Origin: Pseudomonadota bacterium
GTDB taxonomy: Bacteria > Pseudomonadota > Gammaproteobacteria > Burkholderiales > Ferrovaceae
Assembly: GCA_021850135.1 (NCBI GenBank)
Contig: JAJZRV010000005.1
Coordinates: 1 to 53,723 of the forward strand
Direction of reading: 5' to 3'
DNA: 53,723 nt
Shown: positions 11,822 to 22,503 of the stretch, one piece after another
Layout of the letters: each line of letters opens with the position of its first letter
How positions within the stretch are numbered: the first letter of the stretch is position 1
Notes under the pieces: generated by a model
What the model was told of the DNA's origin: nothing
The model's input: the letters and a program-made list of their open reading frames with translations, nothing else
Database searches by the model: none
Position numbers and translations under genes: made by a program

Positions 11822-14041
11822 ATGAAACAAACCCTGGCTATTTCCGGCATGACCTGCGCCTCCTGTGTGGCCCACGTGGAAGAGGCGTTGCGCAAGGTGC
11901 CTGGCGTGACGGAGGCGAGCGTCAATCTGGCCACGGAAAAGGCCGAAGTCACGCTGGATGCGCAGGCGGGCGCCGCCCCCGAGACGATCACCCAGCTCGT
12001 GCGTGCCGTGGTCGCGGCGGGTTACGGCGCGCGCGCCGTGACGGACGACGTCTTTGCCCGCGAGGATGCCCAGCAGCAGTCCCAGGACCGCCGCGAGGTC
12101 CGGGCCGTGGTTGCGGCAGCGCTGCTGACGGCGCCTTTGCTGCTTTCCATGCTGCTGGTGGGCGCGGGCATCCACTTCATGCTGCCGGTGTGGCTGCAAT
12201 GGGCCCTGGCCACCCCGGTCCAGTTTGTCCTGGGATGGCGTTTTTATCGCGCAGGCTTCATCGCCCTCAAAAACCGTTCCGGCAACATGGACCTGCTGGT
12301 GGCTCTGGGCACCAGCGCCGCGTACGGCCTCAGCACGGTTCAGGCCCTGCGCGGTGCAGGCGGCATGGATGCCCTCTATTACGAAGCCGGCAGCGTGGTG
12401 ATCACCCTGGTGTTGCTGGGCAAGCTGCTGGAGTCCCGTGCCCGGCGTCAGGCCGCTGATGCCATTCGTGCCCTCCAGTCCCTGCGTCCCGACACGGCCC
12501 GCCTGATCGACCCAGGTCGTCCGGCGCGTTTCAATCGCGCCATTCCGACCGAACACCTGCTGACAGGAGACCGGGTGCTGGTGATGCCCGGCGAGCGCAT
12601 TCCCTCCGATGGCGTGGTGGAGGAAGGCGAGAGCGACGTGGACGAATCCCTCCTCACCGGCGAGAGCGAAGCCATCACCAAGCGGGTGGGCAGTCGTGTC
12701 ACTGGTGGCACGGTCAACGGGCTGGGACGTCTGATCGTGTCCGTAACGGCAAGCGCGGCGGAGAGCACCCTGGCGCGCATCATCCGCCTGGTGGCCAGCG
12801 CCCAGGCCACCAAGCCACCCATCCAGCGGCAGGTGGACCGGGTCAGTGCGGTGTTCGTCCCCATCGTCCTTGTGATCGCGCTCCTGACTTTTCTGGGCAA
12901 CTTCTGGCTGCTGGGCGGCGCCGAGGCGGCGCTCATCAACGCCGTTTCTGTGCTGGTGATTGCCTGCCCGTGTGCGCTGGGGCTCGCCACGCCCGTTTCC
13001 ATCCTGGTGGGAACCGGGGTGGCGGCGCGGCAGGGCATCCTGATCAAGGATGCGACGGCCCTGGAACGGGCCCATGCCGTGACGGTCGTGGCATTTGACA
13101 AGACAGGCACCCTCACCGAAGGCAAGCCGGTGCTCCAGGATTTTCAGCCGGAAGGCCAGGAGACAGCGCAAACGGTGCTGGCGGCAGCGGCAGGGCTGCA
13201 GTCCGGCAGCGAACATCCGCTGGCGAAGGCGGTGCTCGCCCTCGCCCTGGAGCGGGGCGTGACCCCCGACACTGTGGGCGACGTCACGGCACAACCGGGC
13301 CTGGGCGTGGGGGGGACGGTCGCCTCGGGGCCCTGGGCCGGGCAGAAGCTCCTCCTGATCAGCCACAATGGCCTGAACGAACACCACCCGGACCTCGCAG
13401 CACGCCTGGCCCCGCGCGTGGCGCAGGCCATGCAGTCCGGCTGGAGCGTGTCCTGGCTCATGCAGCAACGGGAAGATGCGCTGGTTCCGCTTGCCTGGAT
13501 GGCCTTCGGTGACCCGGTGCGCCCGCAAGCCGCCAGCGCGATTGCCGGGCTGCATGCGCTGGGCATTCGCACCGTCCTGATTTCGGGAGATCACGAAGCG
13601 GCAGCACAGCGGGTGGCCGGTCCGCTGGGGATGGACCAGGTCTTTGCCAACGTCAGCCCCGGGCAGAAAGCGGAAATCGTGGCTGCACTGCGCAATGCCC
13701 ACACCGTGGTGGCCATGGTGGGGGACGGCGTCAACGATGCGCCCGCCCTGGCCGCGGCCGACGTCGGCATTGCCATGGGATCGGGCACCGATGTGGCCAT
13801 GCATGCTGCAGGCATCACGCTGCTGCGGGGCGACCTGACCCTGATCCCTGCGGCTTTGTCCATTTCACGAAGGACCTGGAAAAAAATCCGGCAGAACCTG
13901 TTCTGGGCCTTTTTTTACAACGTGGTCGGTATTCCTTTGGCAGCCATCGGCTGGCTGACGCCGGTGGTGGCCGGGAGCGCCATGGCGTTTTCAAGTTTTT
14001 CCGTGGTCACCAATGCCCTGCTGTTGCGCCGGAAAAAATAA
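11822..14041 (+). CDS. copA: copper-translocating P1B-type ATPase
   Basis: This 739-residue P-type ATPase has one N-terminal heavy-metal-associated domain (GMTCASC, C12 and C15), the transmembrane metal site CPC (383-385) in [12 protein letters not shown], the phosphorylation motif [10 protein letters not shown] (D427), the SEHPLAK nucleotide loop (464-470) and the hinge [20 protein letters not shown]. These features define Cu(I)-exporting CopA. The last helices contain [16 protein letters not shown] and [15 protein letters not shown], as in CopA. No CueR-type regulator or chaperone gene is adjacent. Its position beside the ccm operon may be chance or may reflect a shared need for respiratory oxidase maturation. 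Confidence 0.93.
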
Positions 14042-14078: not shown

Positions 14079-14095
14079 TGCACTATATCAGTGCA
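14079..14095 (+). promoter_or_regulatory. putative NtrC (NR-I) enhancer site
   Basis: The 17-bp sequence TGCACTATATCAGTGCA is an inverted repeat that fits the NtrC consensus TGCAC-N7-GTGCA, and is very close to the enterobacterial glnA enhancer. Its centre is about 135 bp upstream of the start predicted for the -24/-12 promoter at 14196-14211, the normal distance for an enhancer. It should serve the OxlT-like transporter gene at 14303. Confidence 0.7.
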
Positions 14096-14195
14096 TAATC
14101 CTCCCCAGAGGGGTGCACCCATCGGTTTTCCCCCATGAGGCGCGTGGCTACCATAGCCCACGCCGAAGGCCCCCTGCGATGCGCGTTGTCGGATT

Positions 14196-14211
14196 TGGCA
14201 TAGTCGTTGCT
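14196..14211 (+). promoter_or_regulatory. sigma-54 (-24/-12) promoter of the OxlT-like/HpxW-like operon
   Basis: The sequence TGGCATAGTCGTTGCT matches the RpoN consensus TGGCAC-N5-TTGCW with one mismatch and has the obligatory GG (14197-14198) and GC (14209-14210) separated by exactly 10 bp. Transcription would begin near 14222, giving a leader of about 80 nt to the ATG at 14303. Together with the NtrC-like site upstream this predicts induction under nitrogen limitation. Confidence 0.72.
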
Positions 14212-14302
14212 TTGGATTAGGACAGTTCTCCCTTTTGGAAATGACGGATTTCACCCCGGGTTCCAGAAGGGGCAGCCACCATATTTTTATAAGGAGTGAT
14301 TC

Positions 14303-15544
14303 ATGGCTAGCACCCAAATGTCTTCTGCCCGTTGGGAACGGTGGGTACAACTGATCCTGGGCGTCGTCTGCATGATGGCGATTTCCAGTCCCCAGTACAC
14401 CTGGACCTTGTTCACCAAGCCCCTCATGGGCGCGTTGGCGGTCAAGCTTCCCGAAATTCAAGTGACTTTCTCCATCCTGATCGTGCTGCAAACGTTCCTG
14501 TCCCCGGCACAAGGGTTTCTGGTGGACCGGTTTGGCCCCCGCTTCCTGATCTCGGCAGGGATCCTGCTGACAGGGCTGAGCTGGGTCCTCGCCTCCAATG
14601 CCACTACTCTCACCCAGTTGTACCTGACCTATGGATTGTTTGGCGGGGTGGGCACTGGCATCGTCTACATCGGCATCGTGAGCCAGATGGTCAAGTGGTT
14701 CCCGGACCGGCGTGGCTTTGCCGTCGGCATGGTGGCGGCAGGCTACGGTTTCGGTGCCATCCTGACCACCATCCCCATCTCGTCCAGCATCGTGGATCAT
14801 GGCTACCAGTCCACCCTCTGGACGTTTGGCCTGATCTTTTCCGTGGTGGGACTGCTGGCTGCACAGGGTCTGAAGCGCCCGCCCCGTGAGCGTCACGCCA
14901 TCCTCACCGGCCATCTCGAGGAAGTGGCCGGCGCCTCTCCGGCGGTGATGCTGAAAACCCCGGTGTTCTGGCTGATGTTCATCATGATGACCATGCTGTC
15001 CACTTCGGGGCTGATGGTGATTTCGCAGACCGCGGCGTTTGCGCGGGATTTCGGCGTGGCCTCCATCATCGTCATGGGCATGGCGGCACTGCCGCTGGCG
15101 TTGACGGTGGATCGCATCACCAACGGCCTGACGCGGCCTTTCTTTGGCTGGATGTCTGACAGGATCGGGCGTGAAAACACCATGTTCATTGCTTTCATGC
15201 TGGAAGGGATCGCCATGTTTGCCTGGCTGCAATTCCGCAACGATCCCGTGTTGTTCGTCATGCTCTCGGGGGTGGTGTTTTTTGGTTGGGGGGAGATTTT
15301 TTCACTGTTTCCTTCTACACTCACGGATACGTTCGGTGAGCGTCATGCCACGGCCAACTACGGATTCCTGTACATGGCGCAAGGCGTGGGTTCGGTGCTG
15401 GGCGGCCCCATGGCGGCCCAGCTTCATGAAGCCACCGGCAGCTGGATTCCGGTCTTTGGTGTAGTGATCACCCTGGACATCCTGGCAGCAATCCTAGCCA
15501 TCGCCGTCCTGAAACCGCTGCGCAAGAAGCGCCAGTACTTCTAA
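14303..15544 (+). CDS. MFS transporter, oxalate/formate antiporter (OxlT) family
   Basis: This 413-residue transporter has about 12 membrane helices. The N-terminal part (LGVVCMMAISSPQYTWTLF, VDRFGPR, GVGTGIVYIGIV, KWFPDRRGFAVGMVAAGYGF) matches the oxalate:formate antiporter family of the major facilitator superfamily, which exchanges small mono- and dicarboxylates. The start at ATG 14303 follows AAGGAG. It is the first gene of an apparent two-gene operon with the GGT-superfamily gene 10 nt downstream, behind a sigma-54 promoter with an NtrC-type enhancer. The substrate is not fixed by sequence. Given the partner and the nitrogen-type promoter, an oxalate-like amide such as oxamate is a reasonable guess. 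Confidence 0.82.
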   Translation: MASTQMSSARWERWVQLILGVVCMMAISSPQYTWTLFTKPLMGALAVKLPEIQVTFSILIVLQTFLSPAQGFLVDRFGPRFLISAGILLTGLSWVLASNATTLTQLYLTYGLFGGVGTGIVYIGIVSQMVKWFPDRRGFAVGMVAAGYGFGAILTTIPISSSIVDHGYQSTLWTFGLIFSVVGLLAAQGLKRPPRERHAILTGHLEEVAGASPAVMLKTPVFWLMFIMMTMLSTSGLMVISQTAAFARDFGVASIIVMGMAALPLALTVDRITNGLTRPFFGWMSDRIGRENTMFIAFMLEGIAMFAWLQFRNDPVLFVMLSGVVFFGWGEIFSLFPSTLTDTFGERHATANYGFLYMAQGVGSVLGGPMAAQLHEATGSWIPVFGVVITLDILAAILAIAVLKPLRKKRQYF

Positions 15545-15554
15545 GGAAACATTC

Positions 15555-17150
15555 ATGTTGCAAGCTGCATTGGGTACACGGGGCATGGTCACGGCCCCAC
15601 ATGCCCTGGCCGCCCAGGCCGGACTCGACATCCTGCGCCAGGGGGGCAACGCCATCGAGGCCATGGTTGCGGCAGCCAGCACCATCGCCGTGGTCTATCC
15701 GCATATGAACAGCATCGGTGGCGATGGTTTCTGGGTGATCCTGCCGCCTGACGGTGAGCCGCTCGCCATCAGCGCTTGCGGTGGTGCCGCTGCCGCAGCT
15801 ACCATCGCGACTTATCGGGCGCAGGGCATGGACGCCATTCCCACGCGCGGCCCGTGGGCGGCCAACACCGTTGCCGGCACCGTGGGCGGCTGGCAGGCCG
15901 CGCTGGAAATCGCGCAACGGCTGGGCGGAAAAATACCGCTCGAGGCATTGCTTGCCGAAGCTATTCGTTATGCGGAAGACGGCATTCCGGTCACCCCCAG
16001 CCAGTCACTCCTGACCGCGAAGAAATTGGGCGAGCTGCAAGGGCAGCCGGGTTTTGAAGAAGCCTTCCTGCCCGGAGGGGCGGTGCCCCGTCCCGGGCAA
16101 CGCTTTCTTCAACCGCGCCTTGGGGCAACGCTCCGGCGCCTGGTCCGCGAGGGCCTGGACAGTTTCTACCGCGGTCCGCTGGCGGCGGATATTGCGGCGG
16201 ATCTGAAAACCATCGGTGCGCCGGTGAGCGCCGAAGACCTTGCGGGTTATCGTGCCGAAGTCGTCACGCCGCTGCATCTTGCGCACGACAGCGGAGACCT
16301 CTACAACATGACCTTGCCTACGCAAGGGGCCGTCTCGCTTGCGATCCTGGGGATTGCCGAGCGCGCCGGGCTTGCAGCCGTGGTCCCTGACAGCGCAGAC
16401 CATGTGCATCTGCTGGTGGAATCCACCAAGAAGGCGTTTCAGTTGCGCGACCAGTTTGTCACGGACCCCAGGGAATGTCCGGTCGCGCCCCAGTCGCTGC
16501 TGGACGGTGCGCGCCTGGACGCACTGGCGGCCCAGATACGCAAGGACCATGCTGCGCCGTGGGGCGCCGGCCGGGGGCCTGCGGACACCATCTGGATGGG
16601 GGCCATCGATGCCGATGGCCTGGCCGTGTCGTTCATCCAGAGCATCTACCATGAATACGGCAGCGGCTGCGTGTTGCCGCGCACGGGCATCAACTGGCAA
16701 AACCGGGGCGCCTCCTTCAGCTTGAAGCCCGAGGCCCTGCTGGCCCTGAAGCCGGGCAAGAAACCCTTTCATACGCTCAATCCGGCAGCGGCGCGCCTGA
16801 AGGATGGACGCGTCATGGTCTATGGCACCATGGGGGGGGATGGCCAGCCCCAGACCCAGGCGGCAGTGTTCACGCGCCACGTGGTTTTCGGCCAGCCGCT
16901 GCAACAGGCTGTCACTGCGCCACGCTGGCTGCTGGGGCGGACTTGGGGCCAGACCTCGGACACGCTCAAGCTCGAGGCACGTTTTCCCCAGGACGTTGTG
17001 GCCACACTGCGATCGCGGGGGCATGAAGTGGAGCTTCTGCAGGACTTCGACGAAACCGTGGGGCATGCCGGGGCGGTGGTGCGCCACCCTGACGGGTTTC
17101 TGGAAGGGGCGACGGATCCGCGTTCCAACGGCGGAGTGGCCGCGTACTGA
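15555..17150 (+). CDS. gamma-glutamyltranspeptidase-superfamily Ntn-hydrolase, HpxW (oxamate amidohydrolase)-like
   Basis: The protein has 531 residues, an Ntn-hydrolase precursor expected to cut itself at an internal threonine. The N-terminal half has the GGT fold signatures (HALAAQAGLDILRQGGNAIE, GGDGFW, WAANTVAGTVGGW). The predicted catalytic Thr is T345 in GPADTIWMGAIDADG, followed by SFIQSIYHEYGSG and GINWQNRGASFSL, and by the glycine pair MGGDGQPQTQ. No signal peptide is seen, unlike classical exported GGT. The bulky start and the IQSIYHE/GINWQNRG region fit the cytoplasmic HpxW branch, which in Klebsiella converts oxamate to oxalate and ammonia in urate breakdown. The assignment to HpxW rather than another GGT-like amidase is inference. 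It is co-transcribed with the OxlT-like carrier and preceded by AAGGAAAC. Confidence 0.72.
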   Translation: MLQAALGTRGMVTAPHALAAQAGLDILRQGGNAIEAMVAAASTIAVVYPHMNSIGGDGFWVILPPDGEPLAISACGGAAAAATIATYRAQGMDAIPTRGPWAANTVAGTVGGWQAALEIAQRLGGKIPLEALLAEAIRYAEDGIPVTPSQSLLTAKKLGELQGQPGFEEAFLPGGAVPRPGQRFLQPRLGATLRRLVREGLDSFYRGPLAADIAADLKTIGAPVSAEDLAGYRAEVVTPLHLAHDSGDLYNMTLPTQGAVSLAILGIAERAGLAAVVPDSADHVHLLVESTKKAFQLRDQFVTDPRECPVAPQSLLDGARLDALAAQIRKDHAAPWGAGRGPADTIWMGAIDADGLAVSFIQSIYHEYGSGCVLPRTGINWQNRGASFSLKPEALLALKPGKKPFHTLNPAAARLKDGRVMVYGTMGGDGQPQTQAAVFTRHVVFGQPLQQAVTAPRWLLGRTWGQTSDTLKLEARFPQDVVATLRSRGHEVELLQDFDETVGHAGAVVRHPDGFLEGATDPRSNGGVAAY

Positions 17151-17175: not shown

Positions 17176-17943
17176 TCAGGCGCTCAACGCCCGATAGATG
17201 CCGATGAATGCCGGGCCCACCAGGACGACCAGCAACCCCGGGAAAATGCAGAACACCAGGGGGAACAACAGTTTCAGCCCCAGCGTTGCTGCGGCGCTTT
17301 CGACAGCCCGGTGACGCTGGCGGCGCAAATGCGCTGCCTGTACCCCCAGCGCGTCGCTCACCCGGGTGCCAAAGCGCTCTGCCTGGATCAGCAAGGACAC
17401 CAGCCCCTCTACGGATTCCAGCCCCACCCGTTGTGCCAGGTGGCGCAGGGCGCGCGTCCTGCTGCTGCCTGCTGCAAGCTCGAAGGAGAGTGCATGCAGC
17501 TCCTGGGCCAATGCCGGACACGCTCCGGCGAATTCGCGCCCGACCCGCGCCACCGCCTGTTCCAGGGACAACCCGGCTTCCACGCACAGCACCAGCAGGT
17601 CCAGCAGTTCCGGCAGTGCGCGCGCGATGGCCCGTTGGCGTTTTCGGATGCGCAGGCCAAGCCAGGCGTTGGGGGCGTAATAGCCTGCCGTGCTGGCGGC
17701 GATCAGGAAGGCACCTTGCAGGAGGAGCGCGCCCGTATGGAAGGCCAGGAGTCCTGCCAGCCCCGCCGGCAACAGCAGCGCAAGCCCCGCCTTGGCTGCG
17801 AAATACAGCAAGGGGGTGGTCGGCTGGCGGATCCCGGCGTTGAGAAAGCGAATGCGCTGGGGGCTGTGATGCCAGTCCTCACGGGGGCGGGCAAGGTGCC
17901 CCAGGGGTTCCAGCCAGCGCTGGATGCGTTGGCGTGTGGTCAT
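17176..17943 (-). CDS. tadC: tight adherence (Flp pilus) membrane protein TadC
   Basis: TadC is one of the two inner-membrane platform proteins of the Flp (tad) pilus machine, a GspF/PilC relative. The start at ATG 17943 (MTTRQRIQRWLEPLGHL) overlaps the tadB stop (ATGA) and gives 255 residues. A T2SSF-type domain covers the region from LRIRKRQRAIARALPELLDLLVLCVEAGLSLEQA onwards. Hydrophobic segments near residues 49-90 and at the C-terminus (FCIFPGLLVVLVGPAFIGIY) are membrane spans. It is the last gene of the tad operon. The 25-nt gap to the converging HpxW-like gene shows no clear terminator. Confidence 0.88.
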   Translation of the reverse strand: MTTRQRIQRWLEPLGHLARPREDWHHSPQRIRFLNAGIRQPTTPLLYFAAKAGLALLLPAGLAGLLAFHTGALLLQGAFLIAASTAGYYAPNAWLGLRIRKRQRAIARALPELLDLLVLCVEAGLSLEQAVARVGREFAGACPALAQELHALSFELAAGSSRTRALRHLAQRVGLESVEGLVSLLIQAERFGTRVSDALGVQAAHLRRQRHRAVESAAATLGLKLLFPLVFCIFPGLLVVLVGPAFIGIYRALSA

Positions 17944-18725
17944 GGTTCCAGGCGGGTCAATTGCTTCATGATGAAGAGCCCGCAGACCCACAGCAGGACC
18001 GCGCCTGCTGCCACCTGGCGTCCGAAGGGGTCCTCACCCAGCAGCGTCAGCAAGCCGGGATGGAGCGCTTGCGTCAGCAGCGCGCAGGCGACGGGCAGGA
18101 TGCTGAGGATCCAGGCAGACAGGCGCCCCTCCGCAGACAGGACCCTGATCTGGGCGCGCAGGGCAGCCCGCTCGCGAATGACCCGCGCCAGCTGATCGAA
18201 CATGCGCGTGATGTCGCCGCCCGTTTCGCGATGCAGACAGGTCGCTACGATGAAGGTTTGCAGGTCGGGCAGGGGGACGCGTGCGCCGAGGTGGTTCAGG
18301 GCCATCGGCAGTCCTGCCCCAAACCCGATTTCCTCCGTGGTGATGCGCAGTTCCCCGGCAAGCGGTTCACGCAATTCGACGCTGGCCAGTTCCAGGGCGC
18401 GGGGCAGATCATGCCCCGCGCGCAAGGCACGGCTGATGAAATCCAGGGCGTCAGGAAACTGGGTGCCGATGCGGCGCAGGCGCCTTTGTCCTGCCAGGCG
18501 TTTGAGCAAGGACAGGTGCATCGGCCAGGGTCCCGTTGGGGGCGGCATGCGCACCGGCGGCGGGATCGGGGCCAGCGGGACGGGCTCGTCATCCCATTGG
18601 GCCAACCGGGCGCGCCAGCGATGACCCGGCCCGAAACGGCCATCCCACCACCAGACCAGTGCCTCCAGCAGCAACAGCACCAGCACAAAGAGCGACAGCG
18701 AAAATACGGCCAGTGCCGGGCTCAT
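17940..18725 (-). CDS. tadB: tight adherence (Flp pilus) membrane protein TadB
   Basis: TadB is the second platform protein of the Flp pilus assembly machine. This protein has 261 residues, starting [20 protein letters not shown] (first membrane helix). A central T2SSF domain follows (QFPDALDFISRALRAGHDLPRALE, ELRITTEEIGFGAGLPMALNHLGARVPLPDL, REtGGDITRMFDQLARVIRER), then C-terminal helices. The start overlaps the tadA stop (ATGA) and the stop overlaps the tadC start. Confidence 0.9.
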   Translation of the reverse strand: MSPALAVFSLSLFVLVLLLLEALVWWWDGRFGPGHRWRARLAQWDDEPVPLAPIPPPVRMPPPTGPWPMHLSLLKRLAGQRRLRRIGTQFPDALDFISRALRAGHDLPRALELASVELREPLAGELRITTEEIGFGAGLPMALNHLGARVPLPDLQTFIVATCLHRETGGDITRMFDQLARVIRERAALRAQIRVLSAEGRLSAWILSILPVACALLTQALHPGLLTLLGEDPFGRQVAAGAVLLWVCGLFIMKQLTRLEP

Positions 18726-19972
18726 GAGGCGTGCTCCCAGGGTTCGCCAAACAGTTCGAGGCGTTCGGCAAACACCGAGGGCGCCTGGGCGGACACGAAG
18801 ACACCTTCGATGCGCCGGTCCCGATGGCGCTTGTGCGGCGTGAAGACATAACGCGGGTGCGTTTGCAGCCGCCCCTGCTTGCGGCCGCAGAGCTCCGTGA
18901 TGGAAGTGATTTTCCGGCTGCCATCGGGCAGGCGTGCCGTCTGGATGATGACCTGCAATGCGCTGGCGATCTGGGAGCGCACGTTGTTCTCCGACAGGCC
19001 TCCGTGGCCCAGGGCCACCATGTTTTCCAGGCGGGTCAGGGCGTCTTCGGGGGAGTTGGCATGCAGGGTGGTGAGCGACCCTTCGTGGCCGGTGTTCATC
19101 GCCTGCAGCATATCCAGGGCTTCGGCCCCCCGAACCTCTCCCACGATCAGGCGATCGGGGCGCATGCGCAGGGCGTTTCGCACCAGGTGGCGCGGCGTGA
19201 TTTCTCCCTGGCCCTCGAGATTGGCCGGGCGCGCTTCAAGACGGACCACATGCGTTTGGTGCAGGCGCAGTTCGGCGGCATCCTCGATGGTGATCAAACG
19301 TTCGTGGGGGGCGATGAATCCCGACAGGGCATTGAGCAGCGTGGTTTTTCCGCTGCCGGTGCCGCCCGAGATCAGGATGTTGAGCCGGGCCTGCACGTAG
19401 CGGGTCAGGAGGTCGCCCATTTCCTGGGTCAGGCTGCCGTGCTCGATCAGGCGCTGGAGCGTGAGCGGCGTCTGGCCGAAACGGCGAATCGAGAGGATCG
19501 GGCCATCGAGCGCCAGCGGCGGTATGATGGCGTTGACCCGCGAACCGTCCGGCAGCCGCGCATCCACCATGGGACTCGATTCGTCGATGCGGCGTCCCAC
19601 GCGCGAGACGATCTTGTCGATGGTCCGGATCAGGTGGTTGTCGTCCTCAAACGATCGCGCTTCGCGAATCAGCTGACCCTGCCGTTCCACATAGATCTGG
19701 TCCGGGCCGTTGACCAGGATGTCCGAGATGTCGGGATCCTGCAGCAGCGGCTCCAGCGGTCCGAGCCCCAGCATCTCATGCTGGATGTCCTCCACCAGCT
19801 GGCGATGCTCGAGGGCGTTGATGGCAGGCTTCTCCACCAACAGGCAGCCTTCGATCCATGCCTTCACTTCGTTGCGCTGGCGTTCCGGAGCCAGGGCCTG
19901 CAGGCGGGCAAGGTCGTACCGGTCCAGGAGATGGTGGTGAATTTTGGCGCGCAATGTGGACAGTGATTTCAT
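18722..19972 (-). CDS. tadA: Flp pilus assembly ATPase TadA (CpaF)
   Basis: TadA is the cytoplasmic secretion ATPase that powers Flp pilus assembly. It has 416 residues of the VirB11/CpaF type. Walker A is GGTGSGKT (203-210), the Asp box is [10 protein letters not shown] (226-235), Walker B is RLIVGEVRG (274-282), and the His box ([18 protein letters not shown]) follows. The N-terminal domain (residues 1-150) includes [17 protein letters not shown], a CpaF hallmark. It follows tadZ by 12 nt and overlaps tadB by 4 nt. Confidence 0.95.
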
Positions 19973-19984
19973 GAAAGGCCGTGT

Positions 19985-20818
19985 TCAGGAGTGTTGGGGA
20001 TTCCAGCGCCATTGCTTTTTCCACCAGCGTTGCAGCAGGCCCCGGGGGGCGGCGCTGCGTGGTTCGGGGGCGGGGATCAAGGTGCGGGCCAGCGTGATCA
20101 GGTTTTGGCAGAGGGGGTGAAACGGTGCCAGGGTCCAGAGCGCCTGTCCCCCGTGGATGCAGGCAGTGACGAGCGCGGTATCCTCGGGGATCCGGTGCAC
20201 GATGCGTGCGCCAAGCGCCTGCTCCATCGTTTTGGGTTGCGGGCTGCTCTGGGGCGTGACCCGGTTGAGCACGGGCACGAGGCGTGCCGGTTCGATGCCT
20301 TGCGCGATCAGCGCGCTGAGCAGGCGGCGCCCATCCCGGATCATGGGCAGCGTGGTTTGCAACACCGGCAGCAGCCGGTCGGCGCCGTTCAGGAGAGGCA
20401 TCATGGCGGGGTCCGCCATCCGTCCGCAGTCGAACAGGATGCAGTCGAAGCGTTTTCGGGCCGTCTCCAGAAAAATGCGCAGCCCCTCCGGCGGCAAGGT
20501 GCGCATCTGCAGCGGGTCGTCGTGTGCGGCGAGTACGCCCAACCCGGGCAGCGGCCACAGCAGCGCCGATTCCAGCAACGCCGGATCGAAGCGCTCGGGG
20601 TGGCGTAACAGGTCCTCGAGGGAAGCTCGGGGTTCGTGCTGGGACAGCATCAAGGCCGCGTCGCCAAAAGATTGCACGCCATCCACGAGCAACACCCTGA
20701 GTTGCCAGCGCAATGCCAGAAGGCTTGCCAGCTGTGTCGTGAGGAAAGTGGTGCCCACGCCGCCCTTGCAACTGAAGAGGGCGAGGACGGTGCCGGGGCT
20801 GGGGGAGGATGGGCTCAT
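19985..20818 (-). CDS. tadZ: TadZ/CpaE-like pilus assembly ATPase (MinD/ParA fold)
   Basis: This 277-residue protein begins almost at once with a deviant Walker A (CKGGVGTT, residues 17-24) and continues with LVDGVQSFGDAALMLSQHEP and ILFDCGRMADPAMMPLL, the MinD/ParA-type core. TadZ/CpaE proteins localise the Flp machine to a cell pole or site. Most family members carry an N-terminal atypical receiver domain; here it is absent. It sits between the tadE-like genes and tadA, the usual place. Confidence 0.85.
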   Translation of the reverse strand: MSPSSPSPGTVLALFSCKGGVGTTFLTTQLASLLALRWQLRVLLVDGVQSFGDAALMLSQHEPRASLEDLLRHPERFDPALLESALLWPLPGLGVLAAHDDPLQMRTLPPEGLRIFLETARKRFDCILFDCGRMADPAMMPLLNGADRLLPVLQTTLPMIRDGRRLLSALIAQGIEPARLVPVLNRVTPQSSPQPKTMEQALGARIVHRIPEDTALVTACIHGGQALWTLAPFHPLCQNLITLARTLIPAPEPRSAAPRGLLQRWWKKQWRWNPQHS

Positions 20819-20822
20819 GCGG

Positions 20823-21368
20823 CTAGCCCGAACCCGCCCCTGCGCCCTCGAGTGGCACGGTGACGGTGGCCATGGGCAGGAACAATTGAAAGCCCGTCCC
20901 GAAAATCCCGATCGGAAGATAGGCCACAGGCTGGCAGGGCGTGATGCCGGGGGCGCACAGGGAGGCCTGGACCGCCGTGACGCAAGGGCTCAGGCCCAGG
21001 GCGCAATTGGACTGATTGAGCGCAGCGCTGACGGGTGGCGCGCTGGTGGGGCTGAGCGCGCCGTATGCCCCGGTCATGAACTGGATGGCGACGGTCCCGT
21101 TGGTGATTTCTCCAATGCCTGGAAAAGCAATCGTGCCGGTACCCGCTCCGGGGTGCAACACGGCGTCGTATTGCGCGGCGGCGGTGAGGTCAAAGCCCCA
21201 GACGGCGGCATCGCGTGCGGCGCGGCGCGTCACCTCCTGCGCCGAATTCCAGACGAACAGGATGCGACCCAGCTCCATGACACCAAACAGCAAGGTCAGC
21301 AGCAAGGTGGCCACCAGCGCGAACTCCACGCTGGTGGCTCCCCGCTGCAAGGATCTAGTTGTTGGCAT
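20823..21368 (-). CDS. TadE-like pseudopilin (second copy, TadF position)
   Basis: The start at ATG 21368 gives 181 residues beginning MPTTRSLQRGATSVEFALVA. The Gly followed by ATSVE, with Glu at +5, is a class-IV prepilin-type cleavage site leading into a hydrophobic helix, as in TadE/TadF pseudopilins. The remainder is periplasmic, with four cysteines (SNCALGLSPC, ASLCAPGITPC) that could form disulfides. The start lies 14 nt inside the preceding tadE-like gene, suggesting translational coupling. The TadE/TadF distinction is by order only. Confidence 0.8.
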   Translation of the reverse strand: MPTTRSLQRGATSVEFALVATLLLTLLFGVMELGRILFVWNSAQEVTRRAARDAAVWGFDLTAAAQYDAVLHPGAGTGTIAFPGIGEITNGTVAIQFMTGAYGALSPTSAPPVSAALNQSNCALGLSPCVTAVQASLCAPGITPCQPVAYLPIGIFGTGFQLFLPMATVTVPLEGAGAGSG

Positions 21369-21903
21369 AACGGTAGAGTGCGCTGGCATGGAGCGTGATG
21401 CGGTAGCCGCTGTCCGTGTTGACGACGGTGGCTCCCGTCGTGCCCACCGCAGGAAAGTAGAAAGGCATCCATGACCCCAGATTGGCCAGCGGCAGGGTGA
21501 TGATCGCCTGCACGTAACCCAGCGAGGCGTCCACCGCAACGCTGGATCCTGGCACGCAATAGGCGGGCGGGGCGGCAAAGGGGTTGAAGGCGGCATCAAG
21601 GCACAACAGCGCGATGTTGGAGGCCTGGATGCCAAAGACGCCGCCGCTGCGGATGTCCTGGAGCAGTTGCGCCTCGATGCCGGGCATGCGTTGCCCAAGC
21701 GCGTTTGCCGGGGCCAGACTGAGCGCGCGAGCCCCTTCCTCCGCCGCATTTTGCAGCACGTTCTGGGTCCAGTACACGCGGCCGAACTCCACGATGAATG
21801 CGCACAGCGTGACCAGCAGCGGCAGCATCAATGCCAGTTCCACGGCTGCTGCGCCGCGTTGTCGTCGGTGCGGGGGCTGGGCGCGGATGGCGGCGACGGA
21901 CAA
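21355..21903 (-). CDS. tadE: TadE-like pseudopilin
   Basis: The protein has 182 residues. The only start that keeps the basic leader is TTG 21903, placed 7 nt after the tadG stop; TGAGG overlapping that stop can serve as ribosome site. The leader HRRQRG is followed by AAAVELALMLPLLVTLC, a TadE-type prepilin cleavage site with Glu at +5 and a hydrophobic helix. The periplasmic part has two cysteines. TadE pseudopilins are processed by the prepilin peptidase and are needed for Flp assembly. Confidence 0.8.
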   Translation of the reverse strand: MSVAAIRAQPPHRRQRGAAAVELALMLPLLVTLCAFIVEFGRVYWTQNVLQNAAEEGARALSLAPANALGQRMPGIEAQLLQDIRSGGVFGIQASNIALLCLDAAFNPFAAPPAYCVPGSSVAVDASLGYVQAIITLPLANLGSWMPFYFPAVGTTGATVVNTDSGYRITLHASALYRYANN

Positions 21904-21912
21904 GGGGGCGCC

Positions 21913-22503
21913 TCAGCGATAGAGCAACGGCGGGACGGGCGGCGCGTAACCGGCCACGGCATACCCGAAAGGGGTCAGGCCGGAGGAAGGCCCCATGCCC
22001 AATTGATCGAGGATCCGGGCAAAGTAGGGCGAGAGGGCAGGCTGCAGGCCGGTATCCACTTCCAGGTATCGCAGACCGGTGGCATCCATCACGCCGGTGC
22101 TGGCGCTGTTGCCGGTGGCGCCGACGAATGTGCAGGCCGGTGCCTGTGCGCTCCAGTGGGGGGCCGTGACGCTGCCGCCGTGCAGTGCGCTGGTGGCGCC
22201 ATTGGCGTTGGCGCAAACCCCCAGGCGAAAGGTGGCGAGCGCGGGGTCGAAGGCGGTGCTGGCTTCCAGGGGTAGGGGGTAGCGGATCAGCACGGCCTGG
22301 GCCTCCAGCACGGCATTGAGCGTGCCGGTCAGCGTGTTGTCGAGCTGACGCGCGCCGGCCAGGGCGGCGGCATCGGCGGCGGTCTGCAGCGTGCCGCGCG
22401 CCAGGTACAGGCGCGACAGGTCCAGTGCCATGGCCACAAAGGCCAGCAGCACCATCAGGACGGTGAGCAGGGTGAGGGTGACGCTGCCGACCTGTGCCCT
22501 CAT
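21913..22503 (-). CDS. TadG-like pilus assembly protein
   Basis: This 196-residue protein starts MRAQVGSVTLTLLTVLMVLL, one membrane helix after a short leader, then ALDLSRLYLARGTLQTAADAAALAGAR. That last stretch is the hallmark of the TadG N-terminal domain (a helix followed by Ala-rich LQxAADAAALAGA). It is far shorter than full TadG proteins, which often add a von Willebrand-type domain, so it represents only the TadG/TadE-like minimal form. The start overlaps the rcpA stop (ATGA). Confidence 0.78.
   Translation of the reverse strand: MRAQVGSVTLTLLTVLMVLLAFVAMALDLSRLYLARGTLQTAADAAALAGARQLDNTLTGTLNAVLEAQAVLIRYPLPLEASTAFDPALATFRLGVCANANGATSALHGGSVTAPHWSAQAPACTFVGATGNSASTGVMDATGLRYLEVDTGLQPALSPYFARILDQLGMGPSSGLTPFGYAVAGYAPPVPPLLYR

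Follow-up and report, generated by a model that had tools for sequence, protein, structure and literature searches.

The hpxWXYZ operon of Klebsiella oxytoca is induced by nitrogen starvation, and control by NtrC and sigma54 has been suggested for it (PMC8381380). HpxW is reported to convert oxamate to oxalate and ammonium (PMC5270733, with reference to Hicks and Ealick 2016), and annotation of hpxW as ggt is a known error (PMC3560190). A gene named gamma-glutamyltranspeptidase (BCAS0751) is listed, with a value of -4.8, in a table of the Burkholderia cenocepacia NtrC regulon (PMC5491218), and papers on the NtrC regulons of Pseudomonas stutzeri and B. cenocepacia make no mention of an oxalate carrier. 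In OxlT, the OFA-family carrier of Oxalobacter, Arg272 and Lys355 are both essential and are described as conserved in the family, and the K355Q substitution abolishes oxalate transport (PMC10070484). Literature searches for an oxamate transporter or for oxamate degradation returned no relevant paper, the only match being an unrelated animal monocarboxylate carrier.

The operon and its promoter region

The operon compared with these systems here consists of two genes of an iron-oxidizing Ferrovum-type bacterium, a gene for an OFA-family MFS carrier followed by hpxW. It lies in the window (the whole stretch of 53,723 nucleotides that was analyzed, contig C108), which belongs to a metagenome-assembled Ferrovaceae genome of 1.78 Mb with an estimated completeness of 87.5%. 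The features of the region are as follows.

11822..14041, + strand: copA-like copper P-type ATPase gene (context only), the upstream neighbor, absent at this position in congeners L054 and L055
14079..14095, no strand assigned: NtrC-type palindrome TGCACTATATCAGTGCA, a predicted upstream activating site and a perfect TGCAC-N7-GTGCA
14195..14211, + strand: sigma54 -24/-12 promoter TTGGCAT-AGTCG-TTGCT, with only one other perfect match genome-wide
14221..14222, + strand: predicted transcription start, placed about 12 nt past the -12 GC
14231..14272, + strand: leader stem-loop CUCCCUUUUGGAA...UUCCAGAAGGGG, 12 pairs, -24.6 kcal/mol, z of -1.8
14303..15544, + strand: OFA-family MFS carrier gene, predicted oxamate carrier, with OxlT Arg272 kept and Lys355 replaced by Gln
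15555..17150, + strand: hpxW, predicted oxamate amidohydrolase, an Ntn-hydrolase of the GGT fold with N-terminal Thr345 after self-cleavage

The original prediction for this region had placed a 17-bp inverted repeat of the NtrC consensus about 135 bp upstream of the start of a GG-N10-GC sigma54 promoter, itself 80 nt from the gene. Both elements were confirmed, the repeat as a perfect match, and the distances agree: from the palindrome center (14087) it is 110 bp downstream to the -24 GG and about 134 bp to the predicted start (about 14221), and the predicted leader runs for about 81 nt to the carrier ATG at 14303, which stands behind AAGGAG. An NtrC palindrome centered within about 80 to 150 bp upstream of the start, a feature taken to mark members of such operons, is therefore present (center at about -134). 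The palindrome was also considered as a copA terminator and rejected, having no T-run and not being called as a terminator. Between the NtrC site and the promoter, positions 14111 to 14120 carry GGGTGCACCC, a perfect 10-bp palindrome with an inverted GTGCAC core.

The leader stem-loop was considered as a conserved riboregulator and likewise rejected, since upstream sequences of the family relatives, compared by eye, differ and do not conserve it, and since the z value of the window stem is only -1.8. In its place, the L054 and L055 leaders have a GGGGTC-type hairpin with six T behind it, resembling a terminator; attenuation by these hairpins and that of the window, not conserved in sequence, is possible. 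Gene neighborhoods upstream vary as well, with copA 5' of the operon in L052, L053, L061, and L063 to L066, ccmA in L054 and L055, and another gene in L056 to L059. On the other side, a minus-strand cluster convergent with hpxW (17176-22503) resembles Tad/Flp pilus assembly genes (TadB/TadC-like, CpaF-like ATPase, TadE/TadG-like), as judged by eye.

Promoter conservation and the choice of activator

The core promoter is well conserved: of the 18 orthologous carriers of the family, 17 have a -24/-12 element in the 200 bp ahead of the gene, a perfect match in 15, compared with 0.14 expected from dinucleotide shuffles. A sigma54 element also precedes the same carrier-hpxW pair in Pseudomonas, Herminiimonas, and others, and sigma54-like elements ahead of hpxW or of the pair are found in many proteobacteria. 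The palindrome behaves differently, being strong in L052, intermediate or weaker in L053, L063 to L067, and L069, and weak or absent in L054 to L062 and L068; in L054 to L060, the 250 bp ahead of the promoter contain no credible NtrC site. Even in the congeners L054 and L055, whose carriers are 92% identical, it is undetectable near the promoter. The original prediction had looked to conservation of both motifs in relatives and had counted the loss of both against itself; the sigma54 half held, and the loss concerns only the palindrome, in part of the family. Since the palindrome is lost in L054 to L060 while the -24/-12 element stays, the enhancer appears to turn over around a stable core promoter. 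A conserved palindrome is not a strict defining feature of an Ntr operon, but its absence lowers confidence. In L056 to L058, which have no proximal NtrC site, a CGCAC-N7-GTGCR palindrome lies some 495 bp ahead of the sigma54 element, apparently inside the upstream gene; this could be a distant enhancer, and coding constraint could equally keep it.

Both regulators that the original prediction had proposed to look for, rpoN and ntrC, are present in the genome. Its NtrC scores 714 bits with TIGR01818 (cutoff, 558.6), its NtrB is also above the curated cutoff, and ntrBC are encoded beside glnA. The glnA promoter itself combines a -24/-12 element with two one-mismatch palindromes, the distal site being at -104 from the GG versus -110 in the operon. 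In the 13 family glnA promoters compared, NtrC sites come in tandem, about 110 and 80 bp ahead of the -24 element, individual sites being degenerate in a few. Scoring of the palindrome, another proposed check, was done with a matrix derived from 26 glnA sites of the family, on which it reaches 23.3 bits, the top of the glnA range.

Enhancer-binding activators were surveyed as full PF00158 proteins in 15 genomes that bear the operon, a motif filter leaving out activators from five fetched regions. Three multimember clusters resulted: that of NtrC, found in 15/15 genomes, and two others, each found in 9/15. Because NtrC is the only cluster common to all 15 genomes, it is the likely activator if a single one serves the conserved promoter everywhere. 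The prediction of an NtrC/sigma54 promoter is thus supported by rpoN, ntrBC, the glnA architecture, the conserved -24/-12 element, and the presence of NtrC throughout. It is unlikely that the sigma54 promoter is real and its main activator is another protein, such as the response-regulator-type C48 activator, with the palindrome fortuitous or minor. Such an activator would suit the retention of the sigma54 core without a palindrome in L054 to L060, and a second activator is indeed encoded in the genome, where further ones could be missing from a survey of an assembly about 87.5% complete. Yet G028 to G031, whose operons keep the sigma54 promoter, yielded only NtrC and the third type and no C48 type; G023 to G025 yielded only NtrC and the C48 type; and the third type was found neither there nor in G000. 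A nitrogen-releasing enzyme and the agreement of palindrome score and spacing with glnA also fit NtrC better.

Enzyme and carrier

The product of the second gene, termed GGT-like in the original prediction, has 5hft as its best solved relative, which we take to be the HpxW structure of Hicks and Ealick 2016. Its Thr345, unchanged throughout the family alignment, aligns with residue 1 of chain B in 5hft, marking the position of the self-cleaving Ntn nucleophile. The protein is 61% identical to HpxW of Klebsiella pneumoniae, the closest characterized homologue by locus, and there an amidase gene and an NTF2-like gene adjoin hpxW, matching the published hpxWXYZ (PMC3560190). With E. coli GGT (2e0w), it shares the self-cleaving Ntn-hydrolase fold and the N-terminal Thr position, but the NNQMDDF and SSMSPT segments of that enzyme are QNRGASF and HTLNPA here. 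We therefore assign the gene to hpxW, with predicted oxamate amidohydrolase activity, and not to GGT.

The carrier aligns with OxlT (8HPJ/8HPK) and keeps Gln34, Tyr35, Gln56, Tyr124, Tyr150, Asn268, Arg272, and Trp324, but has Gln for Lys355, Phe for Tyr328, and Tyr for Trp352. With Arg272 kept and Lys355 replaced, it does not appear to be an ordinary OxlT, and oxalate export by it is not assumed, since K355Q loses oxalate transport. The same Gln is present in all orthologues, among them every carrier found next to hpxW in Pseudomonas, Herminiimonas, Pseudaminobacter, and Paraburkholderia. OFA paralogues in Ferrovaceae keep Lys355, as does the genome's own (C7:6417), and in some relatives lie near oxalyl-CoA decarboxylase; the one in G029 adjoins genes for formate dehydrogenase and oxalyl-CoA decarboxylase. 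A binding site that pairs one Arg with one Gln would suit a monocarboxylate with an amide, and the replacement of Lys355 beside a retained Arg272 thus points to a mono-anion amide such as oxamate as the probable substrate.

A carrier-anchored sample, drawn order-wide because a class-wide one gave only one further genome, contained eight Gln carriers, four of them with hpxW within about 1.5 kb, and 5 Ala and 11 Lys carriers (including the genome's own paralogue), none beside hpxW. Because Gln355 carriers without hpxW nearby exist (L242 to L245), their substrate range may be broader than oxamate. The Ala carriers form an OFA branch of their own (L247 to L251, e.g., L247:1456-2751 and L249), and in L247 and L249 the neighboring gene is amidase-like, which suggests a different amide as substrate.

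We regard it as distinctly unlikely that the pair is a true oxalate/formate-type antiporter and a true gamma-glutamyltransferase, serving oxalate or glutathione and controlled by nitrogen only secondarily. The carrier does pass the TIGR04259 oxalate/formate MFS antiporter cutoff (432 versus 335) and the enzyme matches Pfam G_glu_transpept, but the Lys essential in OxlT is Gln here, and the enzyme, far closer to HpxW, falls below the GGT equivalog cutoff (TIGR00066, 314 versus 357.85 bits). The genome, moreover, encodes a separate GGT-like paralogue (C48:13760) as well as the Lys355 carrier, and GGT-like paralogues of the family are only about 28 to 33% identical to the window enzyme.

Motif frequency, proposed function, and known counterparts

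Motif counts in the window alone are no higher than expected, with 2 one-mismatch palindromes (3.4 expected) and 1 one-mismatch sigma54 element (1.0 expected). Perfect matches are rare even in the whole genome of 1.78 Mb, with 5 palindromes and 2 TTGGCAY-N5-TTGCW sites; thus, chance would place the two within 120 bp of each other far less than once, simple arithmetic giving an expectation of about 0.002. When an NtrC-like site with at most one mismatch was sought within 300 bp upstream of 30 sigma54-like sites examined in the genome (at most one mismatch), only 3 had one: glnA (two sites), a porin gene, and this operon. That a sigma70 promoter reads the operon and both motifs are fortuitous is hardly credible, for although one-mismatch matches to each are expected in a window of this size, the -24/-12 element is kept in nearly all orthologues against the shuffled expectation, a glnA-grade NtrC site co-occurs with it, and no sigma70-like site was found in the intergenic region ahead of the carrier gene.

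The porin-like gene (L046, G000:C84:6547-6651), with its glnA-type NtrC site and sigma54 element, is itself predicted to be nitrogen regulated. Among the other four perfect palindromes, two precede ureA and an Amt-type ammonium transporter gene, respectively (L008 and L009; G000:C25:373 and G000:C87:4032), both without an obvious sigma54 element, and one of the last two reaches only 4.3 bits on the glnA matrix.

From the motifs, the genes, the conserved core promoter, the identity of the regulators, and the Lys355-to-Gln replacement, all read from sequence, we consider it probable that this operon is activated by NtrC with sigma54 and serves nitrogen scavenging through the uptake and hydrolysis of oxamate; from these we infer NtrC binding and the nitrogen response, oxamate as the transported substrate, and the fate of oxalate. 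When fixed nitrogen is scarce, NtrB would phosphorylate NtrC, which would bind the palindrome at 14079-14095 and, by DNA looping, open the RNA polymerase-sigma54 complex at 14195-14211. The transcript from about 14221 would encode the OFA carrier and HpxW; the carrier, with its carboxylate-binding Arg kept and Gln for Lys355, would import oxamate, which HpxW would hydrolyze to oxalate and ammonia. Ammonia would then pass to GlnA, itself predicted to be NtrC controlled through the same site architecture. Oxalate would be a by-product, possibly exported or, in relatives with oxalyl-CoA decarboxylase, broken down to formate; no oxalyl-CoA decarboxylase was found above the cutoff in the window genome, which may reflect incompleteness.

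The original prediction had called nitrogen control unexpected for an oxalate/formate carrier. Because the partner enzyme is predicted to release ammonia from oxamate and the carrier lacks OxlT Lys355, such regulation is no longer surprising, and the apparent oddity of nitrogen control over an "oxalate" carrier is resolved. Two likely wrong automatic names, GGT and oxalate/formate antiporter, give way to a testable function, and iron oxidizers of acid mines gain a predicted organic nitrogen source. A one-residue hypothesis also follows for how an oxalate carrier could turn into an oxamate carrier. We are evenly divided on its wider form, in which the Gln355 branch beside hpxW (Ferrovaceae, Pseudomonas, Oxalobacteraceae, and Paraburkholderia) would be a dedicated oxamate transporter, Lys355 to Gln would retune the site from di-anion to mono-amide, and the carrier-hpxW pair would be a sigma54-controlled module for oxamate as a nitrogen source.

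Among known systems, the promoter of glnA in this genome also combines a -24/-12 element with similarly spaced palindromes of this sequence type; its palindromes, however, are two in tandem and are kept in nearly all 13 family promoters compared, whereas the operon has one that is not conserved. Klebsiella hpxWXYZ resembles the operon in the sequence of HpxW and in the sigma54-like TGGAAC-N5-TTGCA ahead of hpxW, seen in Klebsiella and Raoultella; there, hpxW stands with hpxX, hpxY, and hpxZ, whereas here its partner is an OFA carrier and those three genes are absent from the operon. Given the published induction of Klebsiella hpxWXYZ and the widespread sigma54-like elements, the promoter found here is a further predicted case of a switch already known in kind from the suggested NtrC control of Klebsiella hpxW, and the newer part is the proposed oxamate specificity of the carrier.
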